A DNA stretch of 64,000 nt, taken from the NCBI RefSeq assembly GCF_004777465.1, contig NZ_CP038462.1:868001-932000 (forward strand). The letters run 5' to 3'. The notes beneath the pieces were generated by a model. That model was not told where the DNA came from, searched no databases, and saw only the letters and a program-made list of their open reading frames with translations. Below are positions 19,858 to 54,990 of the stretch, piece by piece (positions within the stretch are counted from its first letter, which is position 1; each line of letters opens with the position of its first letter). Both the position numbers and the translations under genes were made by a program. The DNA comes from Nocardioides daphniae. GTDB taxonomy: Bacteria; Actinomycetota; Actinomycetes; Propionibacteriales; Nocardioidaceae.

Positions 19858-20878
19858 TCACTGGGAGAAGTTGATCGCGGAGAACTTCTTCATCTTGCTG
19901 AGCTGGTGCTCGGAGATGACCTGGCGGATCGTGCCGCTGCGCGAGCGCATCACCAGCGAGTGGGTGGTCGCGGCGCCGTTTGCTTTGTAGCGGACGCCCT
20001 TCATCAGCTCGCCGTCACTGATGCCGGTGGCGACGAAGAAGCAGTCGTCACCGGTGACCAGGTCGTCGGTGGAGAGGACGAAGTTGGGGTCGAGGTTGTG
20101 GCCGGCGTCGATGGCGCGCTGGCGCTCCTCGTCGTCGGTGGGCCACAGGCGACCCTGGATCACGCCGCCGATCGCCTTCATGGCGCAGGCCGCGATGATG
20201 CCCTCGGGGGTGCCGCCGATGCCGAGCATGAGGTCGACGCCGGTGTCGGGGCGGGCCGCCATGATCGCGCCGGCGACGTCGCCGTCGCTGATGAACTTGA
20301 TCCGCGCGCCGGTGGAGCGGATCTGCTCGACCATCTCTCGTGGCGCGGGCGGTCGAGGATGACGACGGTGACGTCCTCGGGGCGGGTGCCCTTGGCGCGG
20401 GCCACGGCGCGGATGTTCTCCGGGACGGGGTTGCGGATGTCGACGACGTGGGCGGCCTCGGGGCCGGTGACCAGTTCTCCATGTAGAAGACGGCCGACGG
20501 GTCGTACATCGCGCCGCGCGGGGCGACCGCCATCACGGCGATCGCGTTGTTCATGCCCTTGGCGGTCAGCGTGGTGCCGTCGATCGGGTCGACGGCGACG
20601 TCGACCTCGGGGCCGGTGCCGTCGCCGACCTGCTCGCCGTTGAAGAGCATCGGGGCGTCGTCCTTCTCGCCCTCGCCGATGACGACGGTGCCGTTCATGG
20701 CGACCGAGGAGATCATCACGCGCATCGCGTTGACGGCGACGCCGTCGGCACCGTTCTTGTCGCCGCGTCCGACCCAGCGACCCGCTGCCAGTGCGGCGGC
20801 CTCGGTGACGCGCACCAGCTCCATGGCCAGGTTGCGGTCGGGCGGGGTGGGCGAGACGGAGGCGTCGACGTTCGTCAT
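19858..20878 (-). CDS. glpX: Fructose-1,6-bisphosphatase class II GlpX, two frame breaks
   Basis: GlpX removes the 1-phosphate of fructose-1,6-bisphosphate and is the main gluconeogenic phosphatase in actinobacteria. The N-terminus shows [21 protein letters not shown] split before [13 protein letters not shown], then [13 protein letters not shown] and the metal site [13 protein letters not shown]. The middle part and the C-terminus ([16 protein letters not shown]) are in other frames. Breaks near 20477 (missing G after MEK) and 20338 (missing G in RHEEMVEQ) explain this. The ATG at 20878 is preferred; one three codons upstream is possible. Confidence 0.9.
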
Positions 20879-21651: not shown

Positions 21652-21870
21652 TCAGTCGTCGGAGGGTGCGTCCTTGGCGATCGCGTCGTCGAGCCGCTGG
21701 CGCGCCCCGTTGAGCCACGCCTGGCAGGCCGTCGCCAACGCCTCGCCGCGCTCCCACAGCGCCAAGGACTCCTCGAGCGTGGTGCCGCCCTGCTCGAGCG
21801 TGCGCACCACCTCGATCAGCTCCTCCCGGGCCTCCTCGTAGGAGAGGTCCTGCGGGGCGGTCTCACTCAT
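21652..21870 (-). CDS. xseB: Exodeoxyribonuclease VII small subunit
   Basis: This 72-residue XseB subunit forms a complex with XseA that degrades single-stranded DNA from both ends during mismatch and recombination repair. The sequence [20 protein letters not shown], followed by [15 protein letters not shown], is the classic two-helix XseB pattern. Its start overlaps the 3' end of xseA by eight bases, as is usual for this pair. Confidence 0.95.
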
Positions 21871-23133
21871 CGTCGGCTCCTGCGGTCTGAGGCTGGCTGG
21901 GGTGGGGCTGGCTGTGGTCGGGCTCGGTGTCGGTGGAGGTCGCGTGCACGCGGCCGTCGGCCAGCCGCACGGTCAGCGCGCTGCCCGCGGGCAGCGCCGT
22001 GACCGAGGTGACCACGTGGCCGTCGCCGTCCTGCACCACGGCGTAGCCGCGCTGCAACGTGGCCAGGGGGGACAGGGCACGCGCGCGGGCGCGGTGGTGG
22101 TCGACGTCGTCGGCGGCGCGGTCGAGCCGGTGCGAGAGCGTACGCCTGGCGCGGTCGCGCAGGGCGGCGACCTCGTCGGCCCGGGCGTCGAGCAGCGTAC
22201 GAGGGTCGGCCAGCGCGGGGCGGGAGCGCAGGGCGTCGAGGGTGTGCTGCTCGCGCTCCACGTAGGCGCGGACCAGTGACCGGACGCGTCCGTGGGCCCA
22301 GACCACGCCGGCCAGCTCCTCGGCCATGTCGGGCACGACCTGCTTGGCGGCGTCGTGGGGGTGGAGGCGCGGACGTCGGCGACCAGGTCGAGCAGCGGCT
22401 GGTCGGGCTCGTGGCCGATGGCGGAGACCACCGGCGTACGCATCGAGTGGACCTGCCGGACCAGGCTCTCGTCGCTGAAGGGCAGCAGGTCCTCGACCGA
22501 GCCGCCGCCGCGGGCCACGACGATGACGTCGACGGCCGGGTTGGCCTCGAGGCGCTGGAGCGCGGCGATCACGGTGGCGGCGGAGTTCTGGCCCTGCATG
22601 GTGGCGTGGGCGACCTCGAAGCGGACCGCCGGCCAGCGGCGCCGCGCGTTGTCGAGGACGTCGCGCTCGGCGGCCGACTTGGGGGCGGTGACCAGGCCCA
22701 CGCAGTCGGGCAGGAAGGGGAGCTGGCGCTTGAGCTCGGGGGCGAAAAGTCCTTCGGCGGCCAGCAGCTGGCGGCGGCGCTCGAGGCGGGCGAGCAGCTC
22801 GCCGAGGCCGACCATCCGGATGTCGCGGGCGACCAGCGAGAGGGTGCCGCGGTTGGCGTAGTAGCTGGGCTTGGCGTGCAAGACGACGCTGGCCCCCTCG
22901 ACCAGCGGCGGGTTGAGGGAGTCGAAGAGGCTGCGCGCACAGGTGACGTTGACCGAGATGTCGGCGTGCGAGTCGCGCAGCGTCATGAAGACGGTCTGCA
23001 GGCCCGGTCGCCGCGAGACCTGGGTGACCTGGCCCTCGACCCAGACCGCGCCGAGACGGTCGATCCATCCCGAGAGCGCGTTGGCGATCGACCGGACCGG
23101 TGCCGGTTGCTCCAGGGAGGTCTCGAGTGCCAC
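21863..23133 (-). CDS. xseA: Exodeoxyribonuclease VII large subunit, one frame break
   Basis: XseA is the catalytic subunit of exonuclease VII, about 424 residues. It has an N-terminal OB-fold (residues 10-110, [20 protein letters not shown]) and the catalytic region with [20 protein letters not shown] and VSAIGHEPD. After VRASTPT the frame shifts near 22361 (one C missing), and the coiled-coil C-terminal part [16 protein letters not shown] continues to 21863. The GTG at 23133 sits 6 bases after a TAGGCT -10, so translation is likely leaderless. Confidence 0.92.
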
Positions 23134-25712: not shown

Positions 25713-26147
25713 TCAGCGGTCGTCGGAGCTGAGGACGCCGCGGCGGCGTCCCTCGAGGGCGATCAGGGCCAACGCCCAGCCGGCCACCAGCGCCACGCTG
25801 TGGTTGGTGAGCCCGGTGACGACCGCCTGGACCACCGCGTCGTCAGCGCGGGCGACGACCTGCGGCGCGGCGAGGCCGAGCAGCACGAGGACCGCGAGCA
25901 TCAGCGCAGGCGGCAGCATCGCACCCAGCGAGAGCGCCGACTGCTCGACCCGGATGGCCAGGTAGAGGCAGAGGGTGATGAAGCAGAGGTCGAAGAAGAG
26001 GCTGAGGTGACCGCTCATCAGGTAGTCCAGCGCCACGGCGCTGAGCACCAGCGCGAACCCGAGGGCCACGACCTGGCGCCTGGGTTCGGTTCCGTACAGC
26101 CACGACGGCTGGTCTGGGGTCACGGGCCAAAAATAGGCCACGGTCAC
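25713..26147 (-). CDS. DUF6542-like membrane protein
   Basis: This 144-residue protein has four predicted membrane segments, near residues 27-46, 49-66, 72-94 and 112-132, and short charged ends. The pattern fits the actinobacterial DUF6542 domain, which typically occurs between ispH and ychF. The ATG overlaps the rmuC stop by four bases, so it is translated with rmuC. No function is known for the family. Confidence 0.65.
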   Translation of the reverse strand: MTVAYFWPVTPDQPSWLYGTEPRRQVVALGFALVLSAVALDYLMSGHLSLFFDLCFITLCLYLAIRVEQSALSLGAMLPPALMLAVLVLLGLAAPQVVARADDAVVQAVVTGLTNHSVALVAGWALALIALEGRRRGVLSSDDR

Positions 26148-27279
26148 TCCCCGGCGACACGGCGCGCCGCAATCTGGCCCTCCGAGTGGGTTGGGAGACC
26201 CCGCGGCGCGGGGTTGTCGTCGAACTCGGGGGCAGCCAGCAGGCGGGGTGTGGTCTCGACCTGGGACGGCTCGACGAGGTCGCTTCGGACCACCCCGAGG
26301 TCGTTGAACTTGCGGGCGGTGACGAGGACGCGCCCCTCCAGCGAGCCGACCGCGCTGTTGTAGGACTGCACTGCGCTGGACAGGCTGCGGCCGACCTTGG
26401 AGAAGTGGGCGCCCATGGTGCCCAGCCGCTCGTGGAGCTCGCGGCCGAGCTGCTGCACCTCCGCGACCTGGGCGGCCACCGCCTCGTGGCGCCAGCCGTG
26501 GGCGACGGTGCGCAGGAGGGCGATCAGCGTGGTCGGGGTGGCGAGCACGACGTCGCGCGCGGCTGCGTACTCGAGGAGGTCGCGCTGGCTCTCCAGCGCG
26601 ACGGAGAGGAAGGCCTCGGCGGGGAGACGAAGAGGACCACGAACTCGGGGCTCTCTGGCAGCGAGCGCCAGTAGGCCTTGGCGCCGAGCTGGTCGACGTG
26701 CGTACGCAGCTGGCGCGCGTGCCGGGTGAGGTGCTCGGCGCGGCGGGCGTCGTCCTCGGCGGCCGAGGCGTCGAGGAACGCGTCGAGCGGGACCTTGGAG
26801 TCGACGACGACCTGTCGTCCGCCGGCGAGGTGGACCACCAGGTCGGGGCGCAGGACGCCGTCGTCGAGGCGGACCTGCTCGGAGAAGTCGACGTGGTCGA
26901 CCATCCCGGCCAGCTCGACTGCGCGGCGCAGGTGCATCTCGCCCCACTGGCCGCGGACCTGCGGCTTGCGCAGGGCGGTGGCCAGGGAGGCGGTCTCGCG
27001 ACGGAGGGTCTCGGTGGTGCTGCGCATCGACTGGACCTGAGCGTTGAACTCGCCCTGCCAGGTGGCGCGGTCGTGGTCGATGAGGCGCAGGTGCTCGGCG
27101 AGCCGGTCGAGGCCCTCCTTGACCACGGCCTGGTCGCCGGCGCGTGCCTCGAGGAGCTCGGGCAGGAGGTCGTCGGCGGCGGGGGTGTGGGCGCGCGCCC
27201 ACAGCCACCCGATCAGACCACCCAGGCCGAGGCCCAGGAGGAGTCCGACCAGCAGCGTCACCAGCGTCGAGATGTCCAT
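26144..27279 (-). CDS. rmuC: DNA recombination protein RmuC, one frame break
   Basis: RmuC proteins restrain DNA rearrangements at inverted repeats and have a restriction-like nuclease fold. This one has about 378 residues, starting with a membrane helix (VTLLVGLLLGLGLGGLIGWL, residues 7-26), a coiled-coil region, and the core KPQVRGQWGEMHLRRAVELAGM with DLVVHLAGGRQVVVDSKVPLDAF. A frame break near 26625 separates VVLFV from PAEAFLSVALESQRDLLEYA, and the rest runs to 26144. The catalytic Asp-X-Lys of the fold is visible in VDSKVP. Confidence 0.9.
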
Positions 27280-36326: not shown

Positions 36327-36776
36327 TCAGGAAGTGACCACGCTCGGCGGCAGGTCCAGGTCGGGCACGAGCTCGCGCAGCAGCTCTCGTACGCGGCCGT
36401 CGAGGTCGGCAAGCACGCGGCGTACGGTCGCCTCGTCCTGGCCACCCGGGTCGTCGACCGGCCAGTCGCGGTAGGTCACCCCGGGGACGTAGGGGCAGGT
36501 CTCCCCGCAGCCCAGGGTGATCGCCAGGTCGCTGGCCGCGATCATCTCGCGGGTCAGGTGCTTGGGGTGCTCGCGCGAGGTGTCGAGGCCCAGCGCCTCC
36601 AGCTCGACGGCGACCTCGGGGTGGATGTGCTCGCCGGGCTGGGTGCCTGCCGAGAGCGCCACGACCCGGCCCCGGGCGTAGTGCTCGGTGAGCAAACGCG
36701 CGGCGACGGAGCGGCCTCCGTTGCGTACGCACGCGAAGACGACCTGCGGGACGTGCGGCGTGGTCTGTGTGGTCAT
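36327..36776 (-). CDS. arsC: Arsenate reductase ArsC (LMW-phosphatase type)
   Basis: ArsC reduces arsenate to arsenite for export. The 149-residue protein has the low-molecular-weight phosphatase loop CVRNGGR (Cys16 to Arg22) and the second redox cysteines in GCGETCPY. WPVDDPGG holds the general-acid Asp. The pattern fits the thioredoxin- or mycothiol-coupled family. Its ATG overlaps the acr3 stop by four bases; the order on the minus strand is arsM, acr3, arsC. Confidence 0.93.
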   Translation of the reverse strand: MTTQTTPHVPQVVFACVRNGGRSVAARLLTEHYARGRVVALSAGTQPGEHIHPEVAVELEALGLDTSREHPKHLTREMIAASDLAITLGCGETCPYVPGVTYRDWPVDDPGGQDEATVRRVLADLDGRVRELLRELVPDLDLPPSVVTS

Positions 36777-37860
36777 GCGGAGGCTCCTCGGGTGTCGGGG
36801 AAGAAGCGTCGGGCCCAGAGGCTGACGTGGACCAGCCCGACCAGGACGGGCACCTCGATCAGGGGGCCGACGACGCCGGCGAGCGCCTGCCCGCTGGTGA
36901 CGCCGAAGACGGCGATCGCGACGGCGATGGCGAGCTCGAAGTTGTTGCCGGCGGCGGTGAAGGCGACCGTCGTGGCGCGCGGGTAGGTCAACCGCATCCG
37001 GTGTGCCACCACCATCGAGCCGGCCCACATCACCGCGAAGTAGATGACCAGCGGCACCGCGATGCGGGCGACGTCGAGCGGCTGGTTGGTGATCGTGTCG
37101 CCCTGGAGGGCGAAGAGGACGACGATCGTGAAGAGCAGGCCGTAGAGCGCCCACGGTCCGATGCGCGGCAGGAACGTGTCCTCGTACCACTCGCGGCCGC
37201 GGCGGGCCTCGCCCACGCGGCGCGTCAGGAAGCCCGCCGCCAACGGGATGCCGAGGAAGACCACGACGCTCCAGGCGATCAGCCACGGGGAGACGTCGAG
37301 GCCGGTCGTGGAGAGGCCGAGCCAGCCGGGCAGCAGGTCGAGGTAGAACCAGCCGAGCAGGGCGAAGGCCAGCACCTGGAAGACGGAGTTGACAGCCACG
37401 AGCACGGCCGCGGCCTCACGGTCGCCGCAGGCCAGGTCGTTCCAGATGATCACCATCGCGATGCAGCGGGCGAGGCCGACCACGATCAGGCCGGTGCGGT
37501 ACTCCGGCAGGTCGGGCAGGAAGAGAGCCACGCCAGCGCGAACATGAGCGCTGGCCCCACCACCCAGTTGAGCACCAGCGACAGCGTCATCAGCCGTCGG
37601 TCGCGGGCCACGTGGCCGACCTCGTCGTAGCGGACCTTGGCCAGCACCGGATACATCATCACCAGCAGGCCGAGCGCGATCGGCAGCGAGATCGACCCGA
37701 TCGTGATGCTGTCGAGGGCCTCGGCGATGCCCGGTACCCACCGCCCCGCGAGCAGGCCGGCGACCATGGCGAGCCCGATCCACGCCGGGAGGTAGCGGTC
37801 CAGCGTGGAGAGCCGGGTGGGTACGGCCCGTGCGGCGGTGCGGTTGGCGACGCTGCTCAT
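36773..37860 (-). CDS. acr3: Arsenite efflux transporter ACR3, one frame break
   Basis: ACR3 exports arsenite across the membrane through ten helices. The roughly 362-residue sequence shows [36 protein letters not shown], the family motif [19 protein letters not shown] with the essential cysteine, and [21 protein letters not shown] missing base near 37529 separates the N-terminal 110 codons (ending MFALAW) from the rest. The ATG at 37860 overlaps the arsM stop (ATGA), confirming the operon. Confidence 0.92.
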
Positions 37861-49719: not shown

Positions 49720-50805
49720 TCAGGTGGGGCGCCAGCCGCGGCTGTGCTGCGTACAGCGTATCGCTTCAGCCCCAACCCGGAGGCATCGCCCACATGCTCG
49801 TCGACGTGTGTCGGCTGGGGAAGCCCCGCGGCTGCCCGCGCGCCCGGGGAGGGGTCGCCTCAAGCGCGTACGCCGTCGCGTGAGCTCGCGGCGCACCATG
49901 GCGGGCAGCGCCTCGACGATGCGCCGCCAACGCCGCACCCGCAGCAGCCACAACGGTGTGGTCGTCGTCTGGTCGCCGTGGTAGGCGCGCAGCTCGTCGT
50001 CGTTGAGCATCAGGGCGTGCCACAGGAGCCCGGCCACTGGTGCGGGCGCAGGGAGCGGAAGCGGTAGACCCAGGCCATCCGCGGGTCGCTCGTGGTGGCC
50101 AGCCGCCAGTCGTCGATCTGCTCGGCCTCGGCGGGGTGGGTGGGGGCCGGGGAGTGGCCCAGCCGCTCGAGGAACGGGTCAGCGTCAGCACCGAGCCGGT
50201 CGCCGGGCGCAGTCGAGCAGGTCCTGCCCCGCCTCGCCGGTGAGCTGGGGGGCAGCCAGCCCGGTCAGGGCGTCGAGCGCAGCCATGTTGGTGGGCTGCC
50301 ACGGGGCGCGGAGGTGGTGCAGCGCGGCGATGGAGGCGCTGGAGGCCAGGCGGTGGCCCAGACCTCGCGGCCTGCCTGGACGATCGGGACCCGGCGACGC
50401 CACAGCTCCTCGAAGACCTCGTCGCTGGCGGCCAGGAAGCCGGGGAAGTAGACGTGGGCGTCGATCCCCATCGGCCAGTGGTCGTTGAGCAGGTTGACCG
50501 AGTGGAACCGCATCATCTTGGGGCCGGTCATCTCCGCGTCTGCGCCAACCGGCGGCCTCCATCCCGGCGACGAAGGTGTCGACGTCGTCGGGGTGCATCA
50601 GCACGTCGATGTCGGCGGAGACCCGGGGCGCCCGCAGCCCGTGGTGGGAGAGCGTGGCGCCCTTGATCGCCAGCACCCGGGTGCCCGTACGCCGGGCGAC
50701 GTCGGCGGTGAGGGCGTACAGCAGCTGCATCGCCTCGGCGCCGGTGACGCGCTCTGCGTCGAGCGAGCCGTCTGGGTGCTGGACCTCGGTGGCCGGCCCG
50801 GTCAC
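49720..50805 (-). CDS. Nucleotidyltransferase family protein (PF14907-like), several frame breaks
   Basis: The fragments add up to a protein of about 360 residues in the uncharacterised nucleotidyltransferase group of exopolysaccharide and lasso-peptide loci. The intact N-terminus (GTG at 50805) has VLAIKGATLSHHGLR and RVSADIDVLMHPDDVD (residues about 45-76), the KG and S-X-D-I-D metal motif. The body continues with MRFHSVNLLNDHWPMGIDAHVYFPGF, then SIAALHHLRAPWQPTNMAALDAL and the C-terminus LLWHALMLNDDELRAYHGD. At least four frame changes occur, near 50540, 50365, 50215 and 50035. The GTGA overlap with the PqqD gene shows coupling. Confidence 0.75.
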
Positions 50806-51077
50806 CGGGCGACCTCCTCGACCAGACGCGCCTCGAGGAGCGAGGCGACGAAGGCGGAGACGTCTCCGGCGACGGTGTCGACCGGGGCGTCGAAGGCCTC
50901 GGCGACCACGCCGGTCACCTCCGCCAACGTGCGGCGGCCGTCGACCGCCGTCCAGATCTCGGCCGCCGGGCCGGTGAGGATGCGCGGCGGGTGGGCAGGG
51001 TCGTCCAGGTCGAGCAGCACCACGCGGTCGGCGTCGCCGACCTGGACCACCGTGTCACGGTGTGCCAGCGCCCCCAC
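50802..51077 (-). CDS. PqqD-family protein (copy 1)
   Basis: This small protein of about 91 residues has the PqqD fold, which serves as a peptide-binding recognition element in RiPP systems. It shows VVLLDLDDPAHPPRILTGPAAEIW, then DGRRTLAEVTGVVAEAF and a C-terminal helix FVASLLEARLVEEV. The GTG at 51077 (VGALAHRDTVVQVG) fits the family start; an earlier GTG at 51122 would overlap the kinase gene by 38 bases. Its stop overlaps the nucleotidyltransferase start (GTGA), so the two are translated together. Confidence 0.78.
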   Translation of the reverse strand: MGALAHRDTVVQVGDADRVVLLDLDDPAHPPRILTGPAAEIWTAVDGRRTLAEVTGVVAEAFDAPVDTVAGDVSAFVASLLEARLVEEVAR

Positions 51078-51084
51078 GGCCTCG

Positions 51085-52585
51085 TCACTTCCGGGTGAGG
51101 CGACGCTTGGGCTGCTGGTCACGTCGGGCCGCCTTGGTGACCGCCTTCGACTCCTTCTTCTCGGTCCGGGAGGCGTAGCCGCCGTAGGACCCGTAGGAGC
51201 CGTAGCCGCCGTAGGAGCCGTACGTGCCGTAGCCGAGGACCTTGCGCTTCTGCGGGACCCGGTTGACGATCACGCCGAGGGTCTTGGCGTCCACCCGGTT
51301 GAGGTGCTCCAGCGCGCTCTCGAGGTGGTGGTCCTTGGTCTTGCCCGAGGAGATCACGATCAGGGCGCCGTCGGTGCGGGCCGCGAGGATCGCGCCGTCG
51401 GTGACGGGCAGCAGCGGCGGGGCGTCGATCACGACGATCGAGTCCTGCGACAGGCGGGCGAGCAGGTTGCGCATGGCCTGCGAGCCGAGCAGCTCGCTCG
51501 GGTTCGGGGGCACGGGGCCAGCCGCCAGGACCCGGAGGCCGTCGTGGCCGGGGATGCGCTGGAGCGCGTCCTCGATACCGATCTTGCCGGTGAGCACGTC
51601 GGTGAGGCCGACGCCTTCGACCAGGCCGAGGCTGGCTGCGACCATCGGGCGGCGCAGGTCGCCGTCGACGAGGATGACCGGACTGGCCGGAGCGCTCGAT
51701 CGCAGCCACGAGGTTGGCCGACACGGTCGACTTGCCGTCACCGGGCATGGGGCTGGAGACGACGATGATGCGCGGCGGGTTGTCGACGTCCATGTAGGTC
51801 AGGTTGGTGCGCAGCTTGCGGAAGGCCTCCGAGGCCGGGCCCTGGCCGATGATCCGGGTGTCGGCGTCGACGGCGAGCTGGGCGTTGCCGGAGTTGCCAC
51901 GGTTGAGCAGGTCGGTCGCAGGGATCTGGCCGACCACGCTGACCGAGAACTTCTCCTCGATCTCGCGCTTGTTCATCAGGCGGCGGTCGAAGGTGCCGCG
52001 CAGGACGGCGTAGCCGAAGCCGAGCAGGAGGCCCACCAGGAGCGAGAGCGCCAGGTTGCGGACCGGGTCGGGCGAGACCGGCGAGCTGGGCAGGTCGGCC
52101 GCCTCGACGGGCATGATCCGCAGCGGCGCGGTGCCGCGGCCCTGCGGGTTCTGGATCTCCTCGACCGTCTCGGCGAGCGAGCTCACCCAGGCGTCGGCCA
52201 GCTCGACCGCACGCTCGGGGGTGCTGGCGCGGGCGGTGATCTGCAGCAGGACCGTGTCCGGGGGCTGGATGGCCTCGATGCTGTTGACCAGCGAGGCGGG
52301 CGACTCGGTGAGGCCGAGGTCGTCGATGACCCGCTCGGCGACCGCGCGGCTGCGCGCGATCTGGAGGAACGAGGTGGCCTTCGACTTCGCGAGGCTGTCG
52401 TTGACCGAGGCCAGCGACGTGTTCTCGTCGGTCGTCGACGTCGTCACGAAGCCGTTCGCGTTGGCGGCGTAGATCGGCGACCGGGTCGCCGTCCACAGCG
52501 CGCCCAGTGCCACGCACAGCACCACGATCGTCAGCACGCCGCGCCAGTGGTTGCGCAACAGCCGTACGTAGTCCTTCAGCTCCAC
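51085..52585 (-). CDS. Wzz/BY-kinase (polysaccharide tyrosine autokinase), one frame break
   Basis: This is a fused chain-length regulator and bacterial tyrosine kinase of about 500 residues that controls exopolysaccharide export. The Wzz part has two membrane helices (residues about 18-38 and 178-200) around an extracytoplasmic domain. The kinase part has Walker A GDGKSTVSANLV, Walker A' VILVDGDLRRP and Walker B IVVIDAPPLLPV. The tail GYGTYGSYGGYGSYGSYGGY is a tyrosine cluster for autophosphorylation. A missing base near 51680 separates ERSGQ from PVILVDGD. The GTG at 52585 follows GAGGGG. Confidence 0.9.
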
Positions 52586-52671
52586 GAATTGCCCCTCGGT
52601 CGAGAACGGGTCCCTCGCAGTCTACGGGGACGAAGGCGGGAGACGGGCCTCAGTGCACGGGCTGCCACCCC

Positions 52672-52677
52672 TACACT
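52672..52677 (+). promoter_or_regulatory. -10 box of the HprK-like gene (leaderless)
   Basis: TACACT ends 7 bases before the ATG at 52685, in the 99-base gap to the divergent BY-kinase gene. Confidence 0.5.
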
Positions 52678-52684
52678 GCCCGGC

Positions 52685-53543
52685 ATGGTGGAAATGAACG
52701 GCGCGTCCGACCTCGCGCCCGTGGTCCTGAGGGTGATGGGCGTGGTGGTCCACCTCCGGGCCACCGGTGGCCGCGCCGCGGAGCTCCGTGCTGACCTCGT
52801 ACGCGCCTGGGAGCGCTGCCTGGAGGAGACGTCGGAGGCCCCGGCCGCCACCGTCGAGATCTGCCTGGACGACGACCCCGACCTGGTGGTGCGGGCGCGT
52901 GCCCGCGGCGCCGTCGCCGGCACCGACCTCTTCCTCGTGATGGACGAGGTCAGCAGCAGCCTCACCCAGACCACCCTCGAGCAGGTCGTGGGCACCCGGT
53001 GGCTGCTGCACGCCTGCGCCCTGGCCGACACCACGACCGGTCGCACGGTCGTCCTGGTCGCCCCCTCGGGCACCGGCAAGACCACGGCGTCGCGCACCCT
53101 GGGCCAGTCGCTGGGCTACCTCACCGACGAGACCGCGGTGATTGCGCTCGACGGGTCGATCGTCCCCTTCGCCAAGCCCCTCTCGCTGCTGGTCGACGGC
53201 AAGCGCCCCAAGCGCCAGGTGTCGCCGGCCGAGGCCGGCCTCGTGGTGGCCCCGCCCGACTGCACGGTGGTCGCGGTCGCGCTGCTGCAGCGCGAGTCGG
53301 AGCCGACCGAGGTGCGCGTCGAGGACGTGCCGATGGTCGAGGGCCTCTCGATCCTGGCCGAGCAGACCTCCTCGCTCCACCTGCTGGACCGACCCCTGCA
53401 CACCGTCGCCAACCTCCTGAACGCGCGGCGGGCTGCGCCGTCTCGTCTACTCCGAGGCCGTCGACCTGGTGCCCGTCGTCAGCTCCTGGCTGCGCGGGCC
53501 CGACCCGGTCGCCGCCCCCGCCCTCGAGGAGGTCCACCGGTGA
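52685..53543 (+). CDS. HPr kinase-like (HprK-related) protein, one frame break
   Basis: This protein of about 286 residues resembles the HprK-related kinases of lasso-peptide and exopolysaccharide loci rather than true HPr kinase. His109 in LLHACAL precedes the P-loop VAPSGTGKTTASRTLG (from residue 125), and YLTDETAVI holds the acidic metal pair. PKRQVSPAEAGLVVAPPDCT corresponds to the late kinase region. Near 53430 a base is missing, and VYSEAVDLVPVVSSWLRGPDP continues in the next frame to the stop at 53541-53543. The PqqD gene starts inside this stop (GTGA). A phosphotransferase on a peptide or sugar target is inferred from relatives. Confidence 0.8.
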
Positions 53544-53839
53544 GCAGCTCCCTGGTCAACGTCCGCCGACTCCCGGTGATCGACGAGTACGTCGAGGACG
53601 GCCGCAGTGCGGTCCTGGTCGAGGGTCGCGCCCTGACGCTGTCGGAGATCGCCACCTACGTCCTCTCCCGGATCGACGAGGAGTGGACGGCGTACGACGC
53701 GCTCGTCGCGACCGTCGAGGAGGAGGTCGGCGCGCCGCCCGAGGGCAGCACCGGCGAGGCGCTCGAGCAGCTGCTGCGCGACCTGGCGGGCCACCACCTG
53801 GTCGAGCTCGACGAAGTCGGGTCGGACGCACCCGCCTGA
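53540..53839 (+). CDS. PqqD-family protein (copy 2)
   Basis: This 99-residue PqqD-like protein follows the HprK-like kinase with a GTGA overlap. It shows VRRLPVIDEYVEDGRSAVLVEG, the beta hairpin and helix LTLSEIATYVLSRID, and the C-terminal helices EQLLRDLAGHHLVELDEV. It differs strongly from copy 1, so the two are not a recent duplication. Pairing with a kinase suggests that it presents a substrate peptide to that kinase, which is inference. Confidence 0.77.
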   Translation: MSSSLVNVRRLPVIDEYVEDGRSAVLVEGRALTLSEIATYVLSRIDEEWTAYDALVATVEEEVGAPPEGSTGEALEQLLRDLAGHHLVELDEVGSDAPA

Positions 53840-53848
53840 GCGGCGGCC

Positions 53849-54952
53849 TCAGTCGAACCAGGACCGCCGCATCGAGTAGATCCATCGACGCCGCGGCCAC
53901 TCCGAGACCGACCAGAGGGTGTCCGTCGCGGGCCAGTAGGTGAGGTCCTCGGGGCCCATCGGGGTGGCGAAGCGGTGCCGGCGCAGCCGTCCGGGCTGCC
54001 CGGTGAAGATCGCGCCGGGGGAGACCGGCCCCTGCGAGACGCTGATGTGGTGGCGCCCGCGGGCGACCACGTCGCCCTGCATCTGCACCCGCCCGGTCTC
54101 GTGGACGACGGGGCGTGACAGCCCGGACTCGTCGGTCTGCGGCAGCCACGTCTCCAGGTCGAGCTCGAACTGCGCGAGCCGGGTGCTCTGGCCGCCACGG
54201 CCGTACTCCCCGGCGAGCAGGCCGGGCGGGTTGGCCGCCCGGTCCAGCGAGAGGAACGAGTAGCGCAGCGGCACGTGGCCTTCGTCGGTGAAGGCCCGGT
54301 GAGCGACCCGGACCGGGAGCACGTAGTGGTGCCCGAAGGAGGAGACCCGGCTGCTGCCGTCCTCGTCGAAGACCCCGATCTCGTCGGGGCGGGCGTTGTC
54401 GTCGGCCACCCGCATCAGGTCGCCGACGTGGCAGGAGACGAAGCCACGTGCGGTCGCGGCGACGTGGAGCCACGGCCCGGCCCAGACGAGGCCGCCGGCG
54501 TGGATCTTCACCGGGCTCAGGGTCAGGCGCCCCTGGTCGTCGACGACCGGGTCGACCAGCAGCACGTGCCGGTAGCGCAGGGTGTCGAGGTCGAGGAAGG
54601 TCAGGCGCGACCCGCGCTTGATGCCGTCGACGGGCTTGGCGTACCAGGTCGTCACGACCACACGGCGCCCGGCCACGGTGCCCGTGACGTCGGCGTCGGC
54701 CGACGTGGTGATCCCCTGGGGCCACCAGACCGGGTCGGCCTGGTCGTGGGCGTCGAACGCGATGGCGCGCTGCACGGCGCGGCCCATCATCCGTCCGCGC
54801 CACGAGTCGGAGGCGGTGAACTTGAGGTCTCCCAGCAGCTCGGCCACGGTGGTCCGCCCGCCGAGGCGGTCGGCGAGCTGGTCGATCCGGTCGCCGTGCT
54901 CCTCGGAGCGCTCGAGGTGGACGCCCACCACGGGCCCGCCCTGGTCTCCCAC
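53849..54952 (-). CDS. Protein of unknown function (possible beta-propeller)
   Basis: This protein of about 367 residues is not in a family I can name. It has repeated strand-rich segments with aromatic and Asp/Gly turns, for example RLTFLDLDTLRYRHVLLV, IHAGGLVWAGPWLHVAATARG and YRHV-type motifs, suggesting a beta-propeller-like cytoplasmic protein. The GTG at 54952 is preferred because AGGAGGAC lies just upstream. The longer start at 54988 lies only two bases after a TAGCGT -10 at 54991-54996. The 3' end lies nine bases from the convergent PqqD gene. Confidence 0.6.
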   Translation of the reverse strand: MGDQGGPVVGVHLERSEEHGDRIDQLADRLGGRTTVAELLGDLKFTASDSWRGRMMGRAVQRAIAFDAHDQADPVWWPQGITTSADADVTGTVAGRRVVVTTWYAKPVDGIKRGSRLTFLDLDTLRYRHVLLVDPVVDDQGRLTLSPVKIHAGGLVWAGPWLHVAATARGFVSCHVGDLMRVADDNARPDEIGVFDEDGSSRVSSFGHHYVLPVRVAHRAFTDEGHVPLRYSFLSLDRAANPPGLLAGEYGRGGQSTRLAQFELDLETWLPQTDESGLSRPVVHETGRVQMQGDVVARGRHHISVSQGPVSPGAIFTGQPGRLRRHRFATPMGPEDLTYWPATDTLWSVSEWPRRRWIYSMRRSWFD

Positions 54953-54990
54953 CCGTCCTCCTCGCGCGTCAGGTGCGTCGGTCGCCACCC

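Follow-up and report, generated by a model that had tools for sequence, protein, structure and literature searches.

Gene Locus

The window, as the whole stretch of DNA analyzed here is called, comprises 64,000 nucleotides of the 3.56-Mb genome of Nocardioides daphniae (contig NZ_CP038462.1, positions 868,001 to 932,000). It contains a locus in which a Wzz-BY tyrosine kinase sits between two pairs of genes, each encoding an enzyme and a PqqD-type protein. One pair consists of a nucleotidyltransferase (NTase) and PqqD1, and the other of an HprK-like kinase (hereafter the kinase) and PqqD2 (Table 1). The two pairs probably modify exported proteins that are encoded elsewhere.

The families and the pairing that an initial annotation had assigned to the five genes agreed with their Pfam/NCBIfam matches and with the GTGA overlaps, by which PqqD1 overlaps the start of the NTase and the end of the kinase overlaps PqqD2. 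The genes were also found where that annotation had placed them, except that the NTase ends near 49860, as judged by homology with L031:11876-12805 of a relative, and not at 49720. The first NTase piece alone scored 31.8 bits with NTP_transf_5 (Pfam cut-off 31.2). The four NTases of relatives that were scanned also exceeded the PF14907 cut-off, and an S-x-D-x-D motif was kept across the NTases of relatives. Both PqqD1 and PqqD2 were above the Pfam PqqD cut-off of 23.4 bits. Close relatives of the kinase and the NTase are predicted to adopt HprK/PEPCK-type and NTase-type folds, respectively. In the fold search, the predicted fold of the NTase relative from Nocardioides zhouii matched the MenT1/ANT(2'')/LnuA type, with FKRP ranking lower. 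A sequence search of the PDB with the NTase alignment gave no match, and the rows shown for the kinase alignment were P-loop stretches of unrelated ATPases. Next to PqqD2, the window also encodes a 379-residue protein (53849-54988) without a Pfam match, for which the closest relative has a homolog of 71% identity at the same place.

Table 1. Features of the kinase/PqqD/NTase locus in window coordinates
Feature	Position	Strand	Remarks
Nucleotidyltransferase (NTase; PF14907, NTP_transf_5)	49860..50805	-	several frames; lower end approximate
PqqD1, PqqD/RRE-type (RRE, RiPP recognition element; RiPP, ribosomally synthesized and post-translationally modified peptide)	50802..51122	-	Pfam PqqD 43.4 bits; alternative start at 51050
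Wzz/GNVR chain-length determinant fused to BY-type tyrosine kinase, Tyr-rich tail	51085..52585	-	two frames
Divergent intergenic region, 99 bp, BY kinase/HprK	52586..52684	.	–
HprK-like kinase	52685..53543	+	His, P-loop Lys and Asp conserved; frame changes for the last ~40 residues
PqqD2, PqqD/RRE-type	53540..53839	+	Pfam PqqD 26.0 bits

Conservation of the Gene Set

The gene set was compared across a sample of 149 genomes of the window's family; by kinship, G123 and G141 belong to the genus of the window's genome. A profile search found the kinase in 28 of the 149 genomes at E ≤ 1e-10, and a search with a single sequence found it in 37 at E ≤ 0.001, many of these matches being weak. Twenty-five neighborhoods from 24 of those 37 genomes were compared. 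The Wzz-BY kinase, both PqqD types, the NTase and the kinase recurred among them in varying order, and a Wzz-BY kinase homolog was present in 20 of the 25. The NTase (E ≤ 1e-40) was found in 22 of the 28 kinase-positive genomes and in none of the 121 kinase-negative ones. In 21 of these 22 genomes it was at most about 7 kb from HprK; in the 22nd the two were on separate contigs. The linkage of NTase and HprK is far beyond chance. The conserved linkage that the initial annotation had proposed to look for was found, and the proteins did not belong to unrelated families.

In several Nocardioides, the kinase carried a C-terminal PqqD domain and the second PqqD was still coupled to the NTase. The fused domain of the L050 kinase scored 18.9 bits, below the Pfam cut-off. 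PF05402 was precomputed for two of the 120 listed kinase homologs, and the UniRef name "PqqD family peptide modification chaperone" was also given to two of the 120 homologs listed. The model of the HprK-PqqD fusion of the N. zhouii relative had a mean pLDDT (predicted local distance difference test) of 93. Because a kinase-PqqD fusion stands beside a separate, NTase-coupled PqqD, it is more likely that each enzyme has one recognition domain and that both domains read the same signal. The earlier idea that two PqqD proteins imply two clients is therefore not favored.

In G131 (L038:11701-13806), the NTase and a GT4 glycosyltransferase formed a single fusion protein of 702 residues. Glycosyltransferase and RmlA-type matches were also found near the loci of some relatives, and further polysaccharide genes were recognized there by eye. 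Moreover, a 41-residue peptide of the secreted type with NVWCC at its C-terminus is encoded near an HprK copy at L039:3709-3834.

Candidate Clients

Open reading frames (ORFs) of 20 to 140 residues between called genes were examined in the 25 relative loci and the window, and no widely shared short precursor was found beside the locus. The largest group of small ORFs came from three of these 26 regions and looked like antisense of the kinase P-loop. The short conserved peptide gene envisaged in the initial annotation was hence not recovered. A VanZ-like cluster (11 members in 25 loci) and a cluster of low-molecular-weight tyrosine phosphatases (6 members in 25 loci) were rejected as clients because neither was universal, and nothing was found in favor of the tail of the BY kinase. 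The VanZ-like gene of Nocardioides is flanked by PqqD, whose end it overlaps, and by the HprK-PqqD fusion (L047, L048 and L050-L054, at about 9–11 kb, and L178:5310-5708; Pfam-checked in L050 only). In L032 and L033, the phosphatase gene is close to that of the BY kinase.

Many loci encoded short proteins of the twin-arginine translocation (Tat) type with one common signal. Judged from their sequences, these Tat-type proteins with their common signal are the likely clients, and neither the BY kinase nor a short peptide is. An unlinked target with the same phylogenetic distribution, as suggested initially, is upheld by this result, with Tat-type proteins in place of the short peptide. The clients per positive genome ranged from 1 to 38, and the genome of the window had 10. 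Their mature parts had little or nothing in common: the mean column identity of 62 full clients was 11%, signal included. No Pfam/NCBIfam model matched more than two of the 62 clients, so these databases hold no model of the signal class. In addition, TIGR01409 matched none of the 62 at E ≤ 0.01.

Signal Motif and Its Geometry

The Tat consensus consists of a twin arginine, a hydrophobic stretch and AxA. R-R was invariant in the 62 aligned clients, and the hydrophobic stretch and AxA were seen in the sequence logo of the signals. The common motif was RR..AAWxxPx[V/I]..APxFAxS. It was quantified in 89 distinct family signals, drawn from 112 rows with duplicates after exclusion of clients shorter than 60 residues or with E > 1e-6; none was lost for absence of W. 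The alignments comprised 40 of the 89 signals (A4), 62 of 90 client references (A5), and 63 and 47 of 120 listed homologs each (A6 and A7, respectively). W was present in 100%, P at W+3 in 97% and V/I at W+5 in 99% of the 89 signals. W was nine residues past RR in 74 of them, and A-P-A-[FY]-A ended at W+15. Ser/Thr occurred at W+17 in about 94%, compared with 11–31% at positions +18 to +40, a frequency that was partly selected for, since the Ser column is part of the signal models. All 16 signals taken from Rothia, Kocuria, N. zhouii and a second family had P at +3, an aliphatic residue at +5 and S/T at +17. Similarly, all 22 signals from Jiangella and other families had P and the aliphatic residue, and 15 of them had S/T at W+17. 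A residue comparison with 127 other signal-like proteins (S at +2 after AxA in 7%) used rough cleavage guesses and was not relied on.

Relative to the cleavage site predicted from AxA, W is at −16, P at −13 and V/I at −11. According to PMC13381572, which describes linear polyphosphorylated peptides (LPP) and the lpp cluster of Paenibacillus alginolyticus, discrete lasso RREs bind [Y/W]xxPx[L/V/I/F/A], and the LPP leader LppA has Y-16, P-13 and V-11. The signals thus have the same distances as LppA, and WxxPx[V/I] fits the motif of the lasso/LPP recognition domains, which have the PqqD fold. According to the same paper, Ser3 of LppA is phosphorylated by the HprK-like kinase LppK. The Ser/Thr at W+17, the predicted mature residue 2, is close to this position.

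Co-occurrence of Kinase and Signal

The signal profile (A1) was built from 11 signals of 10 seed genomes of the window's family. Because the profile searches scored only a few top candidates in each genome, absences are soft. In a first look, the signal was found in 25 of 25 kinase-positive genomes and in one of seven kinase-negative genomes (E 0.0092). The profile matched 30 of the 149 family genomes: 27 had both kinase and signal, one only the kinase, three only the signal and 118 neither (Fisher p 3e-25). With the seed genomes removed, the counts were 17, 1, 3 and 118 (p 7e-18); both p-values are overstated because they ignore shared ancestry and the genomes are not independent. Reading of the locus in the sole kinase-only genome, G010, revealed a W-x-x-P Tat-type protein with RR..VWAAPTV at a distance of 1.3 kb from PqqD. 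Among 199 genomes of a second family, none of which contributed to the models, 18 had both, none only the kinase, five only the signal and 176 neither. Kinase and signal are therefore near one-to-one in two families. Named genomes reached via the kinase also contained the signal: Rothia nasimurium had three (two weak), Kocuria rhizophila four and N. zhouii three (scan by the P-loop pattern alone, at least three loci).

In a class sample of 296 genomes, 32 had the kinase (E ≤ 1e-9), 27 the signal and 21 both; with the two models alone, 11 were kinase only and six signal only. Reading of the loci revealed a W-x-x-P signal in nine of the 11 kinase-only genomes and contigs shorter than 6 kb in the other two, a gain that is biased because kinase-negative genomes were not so read. 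No convincing kinase was found in the flanks of the signals in the signal-only genomes G361, G287, G370, G271, G339, G105, G030 and G113. In the two family samples, weak signal-only matches were those of G030, G527, G562 and G581. The match in G030 lacked the usual AAWxVP core, and that in G339 was a 519-residue frame whose Tat signal was ordinary and had no W; both were rejected. Generic Tat signals (TIGR01409, E ≤ 0.1) were found in all 10 kinase-positive and all 12 kinase-negative genomes tested, but none coincided with a client.

Clients were often encoded near the kinase. In 13 of 27 family genomes, a client was at most 10 kb away from the kinase, compared with 0.55 expected; nine of the 13 were seed genomes. 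For non-seed genomes, the count was 4 of 17, compared with 0.42 expected (p 5e-4). In the second family, it was at least 11 of 18 genomes. In the Jiangella-type family, a client was beside PqqD-HprK in all 13 loci (kinase E ≤ 1e-9). These clients were small and Pro-rich, LPDTG or LPNTG was visible in the displayed part of nine of the 13, and some of their homologs carry LPXTG protein names. In L157, L158, L160, L173 and L190, W-x-x-P Tat-type proteins with a Pro-rich stalk and LPDTG are divergent from PqqD-HprK, and L160 and L173 have rhamnose-type genes nearby by eye. The remoter kinase/PqqD loci L187 (G010), L194 and L195 have Tat-type proteins in which W is 13–14 residues from AxA; these may be signal sub-types.

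Comparison with Known Systems

Similar to the locus studied here, the LPP system described in PMC13381572 contains an HprK-like kinase, a discrete RRE and an NTP transferase near polysaccharide genes. The LPP precursors described there are 35–200 residues long, with a conserved N-terminal leader and a variable rest. The leader also has an aromatic-xxP-x-aliphatic motif at −16/−13/−11 and a Ser near the mature N-terminus, and cleavage near this Ser by an enzyme of the signal-peptidase-I type resembles the site predicted here. Different from LPP, however, the leaders here are Tat-type (RR, hydrophobic stretch and AxA) with W for Y, up to 38 scattered clients occur per genome, and PqqD frequently forms one protein with the kinase or is coupled to the NTase. 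The full LPP consensus, YxxPxVLxHQxIxFETxxS, was not matched by the signals, which have W and APAFAxS. The scanned window proteins included no dedicated archaeal-type signal peptidase or MsbA-like transporter; this search did not extend to the whole genome.

The parallel to lasso-peptide kinases drawn in the initial annotation is sound. In the paeninodin and pseudomycoidin clusters (PadeK/ThcoK and PsmK/PsmN), an HprK-like kinase and an NTase are likewise combined with a precursor leader bound by an RRE. PsmK/PsmN add phosphate and hexose to a lasso peptide, and a WxxP-type leader is also found in the paeninodin-like pba cluster. Unlike in lasso clusters, no cyclase or B2 protease was found among the ten neighboring window proteins scanned, as the annotation had stated; no genome-wide search was made. 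The target Ser here would also adjoin the leader, in contrast to the C-terminal one of paeninodin and pseudomycoidin.

PEP-CTERM/exosortase and LPXTG/sortase are further parallels. As described in PMC1569441, one enzyme locus serves many unrelated proteins with a short sorting signal, and the systems were found via matching phylogenetic profiles, as here; they are also linked to exopolysaccharide, as may be the system studied here. Different from both, the signal here is N-terminal inside a Tat-type signal, and the enzymes are a kinase and an NTase.

Proposed Modification of Exported Proteins

We consider it probable that the two enzyme and PqqD pairs modify Tat-type exported proteins encoded elsewhere, with the W-x-x-P-x-[V/I] signal serving as a RiPP-type leader. 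The gene set, its linkage, the co-occurrence of kinase and signal, the linkage of clients in many genomes and the fixed spacing from W to Ser were all observed, and the presence of kinase and PqqD in one chain, the chemistry of PsmK/PsmN and the NTase-GT4 fusion were also counted in favor. Each PqqD would bind W-x-x-P-x-[V/I] inside the Tat signal. The kinase would phosphorylate the conserved Ser/Thr at W+17, and the NTase may then put a sugar or nucleotide onto the phosphate before export. The protein would be exported by Tat and presumably cleaved thereafter by an ordinary signal peptidase. The export signal thus likely also recruits the tagging enzymes before export, doubling as a leader for phosphorylation, and perhaps for glycosylation.

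Several observations weigh against this reading. In the fold search with the kinase relative of N. zhouii, PEPCK entries outranked HprK/P. The NTase was below threshold in G044, which has 14 clients, and was matched, weakly, in only one of 13 Jiangella-type loci; with no match in G044 and the other 12 loci, it is not a core component and is dispensable. The activity of its LPP counterpart LppN was undetectable in the test host, according to PMC13381572. A second HprK copy in G067 (L040:2-1015) has an altered P-loop (GSGRST) and Arg in place of His, and is possibly inactive. Strong signals occurred without a detected kinase in G105 and G113 (90% complete) of the window's family and in G502 (four matches) and G579 of the second family, and agreement was looser in the class sample. 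Those of the 22 more distant clients that lack S/T at W+17 have S at +16 or +19. The overstated p-values and the partly selected Ser frequency count on the same side. Finally, co-occurrence alone could be compatible with a shared pathway instead of an enzyme-substrate relation.

Alternative Explanations

Such a shared pathway is the best of the alternatives, albeit an unlikely one. The target of the kinase, PqqD and NTase would be either an exopolysaccharide or lipid-linked precursor or the regulator of such a precursor, whereas the Tat proteins with W-x-x-P would be surface proteins of the same envelope without contact with the enzymes. The Wzz-BY kinase in most relative loci, the glycosyltransferase, RmlA-type and other polysaccharide genes near some of them and the NTase-GT4 fusion are all consistent with it. 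However, it leaves unexplained why the signal alone is common to the clients, why this signal fits an RRE-binding motif with LPP geometry, and why the kinase is fused to PqqD, whose fold binds peptides.

Decay of the locus, in which the frame breaks would be genuine and the system dead in this strain, is more improbable still. Three of the five locus genes are frame-broken here (the NTase in at least three frames, the BY kinase in two and HprK in its last ~40 residues), and most neighbors compared with the closest relative matched in one frame. Similar breaks nevertheless occur elsewhere in the window. An SBF-family transporter (36776-37860) and RmuC (26147-27279) are each split over two ORFs, and only the C-terminal pieces of GlpX (19861-20334) and the ExoVII large subunit (21866-22327) were matched. 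As other window genes are broken likewise, indels in the assembly are the likelier cause. Relatives have unbroken copies of the frame-broken genes (e.g., L031, L037 and L178). The persistence of the ten signal matches in the window's genome also argues against decay.

It is very unlikely that the locus serves an ordinary lasso or LPP-like peptide pathway with an unseen short precursor, the Tat proteins being a side effect. The enzyme families are those of the paeninodin, pseudomycoidin and LPP clusters, but the searches for small ORFs and for a cyclase or B2 protease described above argue against it, and the LPP precursors themselves resemble the Tat clients. An HPr-rel-A type system (HprK-related kinase A and PqqD_rel_X), an assignment raised initially for its similar combination of an HprK-like kinase with PqqD, can be virtually dismissed: among the NCBIfam models, the kinase matched TIGR04352 best and PqqD2 matched TIGR04353 alone, but both cut-offs were far missed (23.6 bits vs 200, for a query without its last ~40 residues in frame, and 14.1 bits vs 35), and PqqD1 best matched PQQ_PqqD, with no listed TIGR04353 match. 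Overall, what the initial annotation observed was confirmed and its interpretation partly supported.

Implications

The new element of the proposed modification of Tat-type proteins is a merger, in which a Tat-type signal also bears a RiPP-type recognition motif across many unrelated exported proteins. Literature searches, judged mostly at the level of listings, found nothing on this signal class. The Wzz-BY kinase and the glycosyltransferases around some loci suggest, by neighborhood only, that the tag is linked to exopolysaccharide. A bolder version, proteome-wide RiPP-style tagging in Actinomycetes, is doubtful: the Tat signal would be the PqqD-read leader, and dozens of unrelated secreted proteins, some of them predicted to be sortase-anchored (LPDTG/LPNTG), would receive, before export, a phospho-glycan at mature Ser2 that fixes Wzz-controlled exopolysaccharide covalently to the cell surface.

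With the clients described here, the kinase/PqqD/NTase set, formerly without a target, gains a likely one, and the fields of RiPP leader recognition and protein secretion are joined. A residue-exact modification is predicted for as many as 38 exported proteins in one genome. The use of Tat would also have a possible reason, as tagging with cytoplasmic ATP has to precede export.

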